From NCBI RefSeq assembly GCF_013343295.1, contig NZ_CP049074.1:849501-913500 (forward strand): a DNA stretch of 64,000 nt. Direction: 5' to 3'. Origin of the DNA: Metallosphaera tengchongensis (lineage in GTDB: Archaea > Thermoproteota > Thermoprotei_A > Sulfolobales > Sulfolobaceae). The notes beneath the pieces were generated by a model, which had not been told where the DNA came from, made no database searches, and worked only from the letters and a program-made list of their open reading frames with translations. The stretch's first letter is position 1; the number at the start of each line of letters is the position of its first letter. Positions 22,339 through 39,480 of the stretch are shown piece after piece. Both the position numbers and the translations under genes were made by a program.

Positions 22339-23554
22339 GTCCGTACTGTCACTGTTAGACTTTTCCCTAATGGAGCGCAACAGAAGCGAGCCTATACAAC
22401 GAGGTCAACTGCGAGAGGAGGCTACAGTTCTTCAAGGACAAGAGAGTAGACTTCAAGGGGACTTAGGACAAGTACTACGAGAAGTACAAGGAGGTGCTTA
22501 GGGTTAATTCACAGGCAGTACTACAGAAGAACAATGAGGCGTGGTCTTCCTTTTTCTCGTCACTGAAGGACAAAGACAGCCTACCTTTCTTCGTCCAGTA
22601 CACCTTGCTACCGGGGTACTGGAAAGACAAGGGGAAGAGGAAGTTAACCCTTGTCATTAGGCAAGACCGCTACGAAGTCGACGAGGAAAGGCACGTGCTA
22701 GTCCTCAAGGACTGGAAGATGGAGGTACCCTTCTCAGGAAGACTTAAGTGGTCTGGTACTCAAGGTAGGCTAGAGGTACACATCCACGGCAACAGGTTCT
22801 ACGCCCACATCCCTGTCAACGTAGGTAGAGTTAACGCAAGGGAGAGCAAAAGACCGATCAAGGACTCTCCCATCGTCCATGACGAGAGGGATAAGGTACA
22901 GCTAGCTTCACCGAGAGGTGATAAGGTAGCTCCAATAGACTGGGCATTAACACGTTGGCTTCAGTAACTATAGACGACGGTACCGTGCTGTTCTACCGTA
23001 GCTCCCTCGTTAAGAGGGAGTACTTCTACTTCTAAAAGAAGATAGCAGGACTAGACAAGTTAAAGGCTTAGACAGAGGAAGTCCAAGAGACTGAGGCTAG
23101 GGAAGAGGTGCTAAGAGAAAGGGAAAGGGTCTTCACCATGCTCTGCCGCAGGCTCCTCCATTATTACAGGACTTTATCCTCTCACCTCGCTAAGACGCTG
23201 TGGGGGTTAGGGGTCTCAACAGTCTACCTCCGTTACCCTTACTTCATCTCTCAGGACAAGGGTATCAACTTCACTACAAACATCTGGTCTTACCGTAAGT
23301 TAATTGAAGCAATCAGGGGCAAACTCTACGAGTATGGTAAAAAGGTATTCCTCGTTGTTGAGTATAACACTTCACGTCTCTGTGATTTCCACGACGTCGG
23401 AGTGAGGAGACGTCTTAGGGGAGTTGTTAACTGCCCTTTAGGTCACAGGCTCTACAGTGACCTCAACGGTGCCCTCAACATTATGAAACTGGGGGTAAAG
23501 GAAGTCGTTAACGTATTAAAAAGACCTCTTTCCTTTCTCGTCTCTTCTAACTGA
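22339..23554 (+). pseudogene. Degenerate TnpB (IS200/IS605 orfB type)
   Basis: Homology to TnpB starts RTVTVRLFPNGAQQKR and moves between frames: a shift near 22395, a TAG near 22467 in the stretch DFKGT.DKYYEKYKEV, the long middle part 22494-22938, then a one-base deletion just after the RuvC aspartate (IDW for IDLGINTLASV) near 22939. Stops follow at about 23034 and 23070. The last part (23108-23554) keeps YLRYPYFISQDKG, CDFHDVGVRRRLRGVVNCPLGH and the final RuvC motif SDLNGALNIMK. No TnpA is nearby. The element is dead as a protein. Confidence 0.9.
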
Positions 23555-23806: not shown

Positions 23807-23814
23807 TTTATATA
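23807..23814 (+). promoter_or_regulatory. TATA box of tRNA-Glu
   Basis: TTTATATA lies 23-30 bases before the tRNA, the standard archaeal distance. Confidence 0.65.
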
Positions 23815-23836: not shown

Positions 23837-23925
23837 GCCGCAGTAGTATAGCCCGGTCATGCTCTGCGCCGACAGTATGCGGGCCTTTCGAGCCCGTGAC
23901 CCGGGTTCAAATCCCGGCTGCGGCA
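23837..23925 (+). tRNA. tRNA-Glu (UUC) with a 16-nt D-loop intron
   Basis: The acceptor GCCGCAG/CTGCGGC, T arm CCGGG-TTCAAAT-CCCGG and anticodon stem CGGGC/GCCCG with loop CTTTCGA (anticodon TTC) are all sound. The D loop is too long: 89 nt in total. Removing 23858-23873 gives a normal 73-nt tRNA with D stem GTAT/ATGC. The junctions fit a bulge-helix-bulge: GCCCG/CGGGC outer helix, GTC bulge, four-pair ATGC/GTAT helix, ACA bulge. CCA follows at 23926-23928, perhaps by chance. Confidence 0.9.
23858..23873 (+). other. Predicted non-canonical tRNA intron
   Basis: 16 bases in the D-loop region of tRNA-Glu, bounded by three-base bulges (GT^C and AC^A) on either side of a four-pair helix that uses intron bases ATGC and exon bases GTAT. 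It would be removed by the EndA-type endonuclease encoded in this window. Confidence 0.7.
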
Positions 23926-23928
23926 CCA

Positions 23929-38296: not shown

Positions 38297-38932
38297 ATGA
38301 GTATAGCTCACATGGCCCTCGAGGAAAGACTGCAGCAAATATCCCTTAAAGTAATCGATCAGGTTAGGACTTTATATGAGATGATGAAGGCTAGCGACAA
38401 CGTGACCCCCATGCAAGTGTACTCTAAAATAAACGGCCTTAAGAACAGCGTTGAAGCGGACAAGTTCATGCTGGGGGAATACATTATTAGAATAAGAGAA
38501 GGTATTCAAGATAAGGATCTATATATTGATATTCTCAATGACTTGGAAAAGATATCTCAAAATTTAGACGCGGCATCTTATAGGTTAAGTGTGCTAGTTT
38601 CCAGAGGGAGGCAAATTGAAGAACTGTTATACAAACTAATAATAATAATTGCGGAGAAGCTGCTAGCATCGCTGACCCATCTAGTTGAATCTCTAAGGTT
38701 ACTCTCTGTTAATGCCCAAAAGTCTGTGGAAATAGCCAGAAACATCATGAAACTGGAGGAAGAGGTGGACGACCTTTACAGGAGTTTAGAACTTAAACTC
38801 TTTGAGAAAAATTACGATGACCTAATATACGTGATGCTAATGAAGGATATAGCCGACCGTCTGGAGGACAGCGAAGATATGGTTCGAGATTCGGCAACGT
38901 CAATAACTTACATTGCGTTTGGGAGGATCTAA
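38297..38932 (+). CDS. PhoU/DUF47-like helical protein
   Basis: A 211-residue all-helical protein. The C-terminal part ([20 protein letters not shown], then [19 protein letters not shown]) matches the E/D-rich helix pattern of PhoU/DUF47 proteins, which bind metal clusters and modulate phosphate transporters. No phosphate transporter is adjacent. Its TAA overlaps the ATG of endA (TAATG). Confidence 0.7.
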
Positions 38933-39480
38933 TGACTTATACAGGGGAACTCCTAGGGGATAGAATAGTAGTTTTTAACAAAGAAGAGGCTAAGGCCATA
39001 TACAAAATGGGGTTTTATGGAAAACCTCTGGGAATATCTAAACCTAAGTCTGTTGAAGATGCCAATAGACCTCTGGAACTATCACTACTGGAAGGACTGT
39101 ACCTGGTAAATACAGGGGTATTGGAGGTCAGGAATCGTGATGGAGTTGTGGACAGGGCTAAGCTAGAGTCCTACGCGGTAAACCTTATACCTAGATTTAA
39201 ACCACTCTACTTTGTGTACGAAGACCTAAAGAAGAGAGAGTTTGTAGTGAGATCTGGAGTTAAGTATGGCGCTGATTATGCAATATATACGTTAGGCCCT
39301 GGAGTAGAACATGCACCTTTTGTAATTTCCGTTATAGACGCCACGGAAAAAATATCAGTGAATGAATTAATGAGTTACGGAAGAGTGTCACATAGCACTA
39401 GAAAAAGATTAGTTCTTGCAGTTGTAAACCTCAGAATGAGGGAAATCAAGTACATAATGTTTAAATGGGTGAAGATATGA
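38932..39480 (+). CDS. endA: tRNA-splicing endonuclease, catalytic subunit
   Basis: A 182-residue EndA. The catalytic triad is visible: Tyr116 in KYGADYAIY, His127 in GVEHAPF and Lys158 in HSTRKRLVL. Crenarchaeal enzymes work as a heterotetramer with a second, non-catalytic subunit, which widens their substrate range to relaxed bulge-helix motifs outside the anticodon loop. That fits the D-loop intron predicted for tRNA-Glu in this window. Confidence 0.95.
   Translation: MTYTGELLGDRIVVFNKEEAKAIYKMGFYGKPLGISKPKSVEDANRPLELSLLEGLYLVNTGVLEVRNRDGVVDRAKLESYAVNLIPRFKPLYFVYEDLKKREFVVRSGVKYGADYAIYTLGPGVEHAPFVISVIDATEKISVNELMSYGRVSHSTRKRLVLAVVNLRMREIKYIMFKWVKI

Follow-up and report, generated by a model that had tools for sequence, protein, structure and literature searches.

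A predicted 14-nt bulge-helix-bulge intron in the D-loop of tRNA-Glu(UUC) of Metallosphaera tengchongensis and its recurrence in the Sulfolobaceae

Results and Discussion

The tRNA-Glu(UUC) gene of Metallosphaera tengchongensis almost certainly carries an ordinary archaeal bulge-helix-bulge (BHB) intron of 14 nt in its D-loop, between nucleotides 20b and 21, which is an old trait of the Sulfolobaceae; EndA would be expected to excise it and RtcB to join the exons. The gene was found in the window, by which we mean the whole stretch of 64,000 nucleotides that was analysed (positions 849,501 to 913,500 of contig NZ_CP049074.1); all of the window coordinates below refer to the forward strand (+). 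With its intron, the gene is 89 nt long (23837-23925) and consists of a 5' exon of 23 nt (23837-23859), which includes the acceptor 5' strand, the D-stem 5' strand and the D-loop as far as GGUCA, the predicted intron UGCUCUGCGCCGAC (23860-23873) and a 3' exon of 52 nt (23874-23925), which includes A21, the D-stem 3' strand, the anticodon arm with UUC, the T-arm, the acceptor 3' strand and the discriminator A73. The 5' exon was delimited using the intron-less 75-nt orthologues and the BHB register, and the intron using the intron-less orthologue L068 and the BHB cut register.

The whole gene was matched by the Rfam family RF00005 with 56.5 bits, the insertion being assigned to the D-loop, and its arms, which were parsed by script, gave the anticodon UUC, which identifies it as a tRNA-Glu. 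The features of the family, namely the cloverleaf, the UUC anticodon, the GG of the D-loop and the T-loop UUCAAAU, were all present. ARAGORN, which assumes that there is no intron in the D-loop, misread the unspliced 89-nt gene as tRNA-Cys(aca), while tRNA-Glu(ttc) was returned only when the insert was left out; together with the Rfam alignment, this bears out the preliminary description in that the D-loop of a tRNA-Glu is interrupted. Orthologues of 89 nt with 94-96% identity were found in all five of the congeners that were searched. Upstream of the gene, a putative TATA-like box A, TTTATATA, was read from the sequence at 23807-23814, its centre lying about 26 bases 5' of the gene. Directly after the discriminator base, a CCA is encoded at 23926-23928, which may be due to chance because most of the tRNA genes of this genome apparently have no encoded CCA. 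A 148-aa ORF (23108-23554) precedes the tRNA gene, its end lying some 280 bases away from it; this ORF contains the C-terminal TNB domain of the TnpB/Cas12f1-like proteins (PF07282, E=1e-8) and looks like a truncated IS200/IS605-type TnpB.

The genome comprises a single contig of 2,176,897 bases, in which 44 tRNA matches were obtained. The Glu genes among them are the UUC gene described above and one CUC gene (L031, 1769198-1769287), both of which are interrupted; in the latter, the D-loop has 15 nt inserted at the identical position. A second, intron-free tRNA-Glu(UUC) gene, which the preliminary description had named as its counterexample, was looked for across the genome and was not found among the 44 matches.

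An interrupted tRNA-Glu was detected in 30 of the 31 Sulfolobaceae genomes, with the same insertion point and usually in both isoacceptors; this number includes 25 genomes that were found by the search pattern, four with a variant D-stem and one (G015) that was recognised by alignment. The sole exception was G023, a genome that is 71% complete, in which an interrupted tRNA-Glu was not found. The comparison of tRNA-Glu in related genomes, which had been proposed as a check, showed that the D-loop insert recurs, and the accompanying opinion that D-loop introns are rare in the Sulfolobales was mistaken for tRNA-Glu. Such introns have also been reported, together with their cleavage by EndA, for both tRNA-Glu of Sulfolobus (Sulfurisphaera) tokodaii (PMC4307357). 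In the other families of the Sulfolobales, a tRNA-Glu D-loop intron was found in two of the 183 genomes (G038 and G047, both from one genus) using a pattern that demands fixed bases, and therefore divergent cases may have been missed. A looser pattern at the class level gave one extra match, in G003, which does not appear tRNA-like, and in a wider pattern scan of named genomes, the matches listed were mostly either archaeal ones with a short gap (intron-less) or bacterial ones. The simplest account is that the intron arose in the common ancestor of the Sulfolobaceae or shortly earlier, and that G038 and G047 have it through shared ancestry or transfer. The loci outside of the Sulfolobaceae, which belong to genus g24 of family f5, are G038:C5:171908-171996 and, in G047, C49:2665-2710, C163:59-104 and C167:8-53; G038 has the D-loop intron in its CUC gene only, and the UUC intron of G047, agcctcgcgccgaa, is identical to the CUC intron of G013. 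Two UUC genes have an insert after the anticodon: the one in G011 (L111, G011:C1:2002673-2002761) has this insert alone, the D-loop intron of that genome being confined to CUC, and the one in G006 (L106, G006:C36) has it in addition to the D-loop insert.

The same point is interrupted in both tRNA-Glu isoacceptors across the Sulfolobaceae, in the tRNA-Asp of one genus and in the tRNA-Glu of one outside genus, and so the D-loop intron might be mobile or copied, spreading among paralogous tRNA genes and lineages via gene conversion or reverse splicing, although we consider this to be rather unlikely. The tRNA-Asp(GUC) of the Sulfolobaceae genus g9 has a 15-nt insert with CGGT/GCCG pairing at this point (L091, G021:C31:2667-2755; L092, G013:C1:1212352-1212440), which possibly spread there from tRNA-Glu; tRNA-Asp is intron-free in most of the Metallosphaera genomes that were searched. 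A proposal that we consider improbable is the idea of Randau and Soell, according to which the intron persists as a shield that protects the tRNA gene, a known fusellovirus integration site, from integrases; it addresses the reason for the retention of the intron and is not an alternative to the splicing mechanism. It accords with the conservation of the tRNA-Glu D-loop intron across the Sulfolobaceae and with the listing of tRNA-Glu(UUC) and tRNA-Glu(CUC) among the SSV attachment sites, but the SSV integrations use the anticodon loop and the T-arm, which are not interrupted by an intron in the D-loop (PMC4090602). As an ordinary BHB intron, which is the reading that we prefer, the insert would need no function of its own and would mostly be inherited vertically within the Sulfolobaceae.

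The position of the splice sites was examined in a register comparison of 41 distinct interrupted tRNA-Glu genes, in which the intron was positioned by homology alone. In the canonical cut register, all four pairs of the central helix were present in 39 of the 41 orthologues (162 of the 164 pairs overall); each of 41 other registers gave four pairs in at most three of the 41 genes, and shuffled introns gave a mean of 72 and a maximum of 96 of the 164 pairs compared to the 162 that were observed. The two orthologues that fell short of four pairs belong to another family and have one mismatch each, and the pair at U20 varies across the orthologues (U-G, U-A or C-G). In M. tengchongensis, the 5' strand of the predicted helix is CGGU (23854-23857; the D-loop C, G18, G19 and U20) and its 3' strand is GCCG (23868-23871), which lies within the intron. 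The 5' bulge, CA^U (23858-23860), has a predicted cut at 23859/23860 according to the register comparison and the rule that EndA cuts each bulge between its second and its third residue (PMC4307357), and the 3' bulge, AC^A (23872-23874), has a predicted cut at 23873/23874 according to the register comparison. Two 3-nt bulges that are cut after base 2 are thus obtained, and they match the boundaries that were derived from the intron-less genes. The inner flanking helix has two pairs; the outer one, beside the 3' bulge, has a single pair before the D-loop, and because of this weakness the BHB is of the relaxed form. When the precursor was folded on its own, the structure of lowest energy was neither a cloverleaf nor a BHB, which says little because the same programme also missed the cloverleaf for an intron-less orthologue and for tRNA-Asp, and the spliced forms were likewise uninformative.

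The intron-less tRNA-Glu(UUC) genes from the other families of the Sulfolobales are 75 nt long and read GTATAGCCCGGTCA/AGTATG. When 23860-23873 is spliced out, the product shares 73 of 75 positions with the best intron-less orthologue, L068, and the remaining two constitute one compensatory acceptor pair, A6-U69 for G6-C69 (numbered along the 75-nt tRNA). The 11-nt D-loop of the tRNA-Asp of the same genome equals that of the tRNA-Glu from which 14 nt have been removed. Because the intron-less orthologues, the BHB register, the S. tokodaii cDNA and the tRNA-Asp D-loop all agree, the intron is predicted to be 14 nt and the mature tRNA 75 nt. The preliminary description had instead given an intron of 16 nt (23858-23873) and a mature tRNA of 73 nt, which is very improbable even though this product, too, is called tRNA-Glu by ARAGORN. 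In the 16-nt register, none of the 41 orthologues has a four-pair central helix; furthermore, the 73-nt product conflicts with the length of the intron-less orthologues, which have GGTCAAGTAT or GGCCAAGTAT, and with the D-loop of the tRNA-Asp, and the spliced S. tokodaii cDNA, which reads CAAGT, contradicts the 16-nt boundaries. These boundaries were dropped on the basis of the register comparison and the intron-less alignment. What stands of the original reading is a BHB intron with a four-pair helix in the D-loop, its 5' splice site being moved two bases further on.

In the precursor, the CGGU of the D-loop would pair with the GCCG close to the intron's 3' end, giving a four-pair helix with a 3-nt bulge on either side, both bulges would be cut after the second base by the alpha2beta2-type EndA of the Thermoproteota, and RtcB would join the exons into the 75-nt tRNA, whose D-loop, AGCCCGGUCAA, has 11 nt. 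The window contains the gene for the catalytic (alpha) subunit of EndA (38932-39480; PF01974, 88.3 bits; TIGR00324 endA, 102.7 bits; PDB 2cv8, E=7.3e-65), which is expected to be the enzyme that removes the intron, and the genes for the EndA beta subunit (G000:C1:988433-988675) and RtcB are present in the same genome. Cleavage and ligation in M. tengchongensis are inferred from the experiments on S. tokodaii, whose tRNA-Glu(UUC) and tRNA-Glu(CUC) have D-arm introns, yield spliced cDNA that reads ...CAAGT... and, as precursors, were both cleaved in vitro by recombinant EndA (PMC4307357). These results, with cuts at both borders, make it extremely improbable that the insert is kept in the mature tRNA as an enlarged D-loop, as does the variation in its sequence and length (14-27 nt) among the orthologues while the BHB pairing stays.

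Genome G008 is presumably that of S. tokodaii, given the match of its locus L050 to published bases. This locus carries the exact bases that were given for 22-26 (CAAGC) and 38-42 (AAAGT) in PMC4307357. The S. tokodaii introns and the one in M. tengchongensis share the gene, the insertion point, the spliced D-loop GGUCAAGUAU and the CGGU/GCCG helix, but in S. tokodaii the intron is 16 nt long in the same register and its inner sequence differs. Canonical archaeal BHB introns have the motif, EndA and the RtcB pathway in common with the tRNA-Glu intron, although they are located in the anticodon loop, at 37/38, rather than in the D-loop. Another crenarchaeal D-arm BHB intron, that of the A. pernix tRNA-Thr(UGU-1) (PMC4307357), belongs to a different tRNA and a different lineage and is a likeness without demonstrated homology. 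Non-canonical tRNA introns have been amply documented in the Thermoproteota, D-arm introns and introns at 20/21 among them (PMC4090602; PMC4307357), and since the gene is orthologous to the one that was studied experimentally in S. tokodaii, its D-loop intron is already known and ordinary. A family-wide survey of this intron in the Sulfolobaceae was not met with in a literature search that had limited coverage of subscription journals, and one may exist.

Conclusions

Beyond correct annotation, the finding has little significance. Tools that allow introns in the anticodon loop only misname the tRNA-Glu(UUC) gene, as ARAGORN did, and splice boundaries that are judged by eye can miss by two bases. 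The comparative set shows cleanly that splice sites can be fixed when intron-less orthologues are combined with the BHB register.
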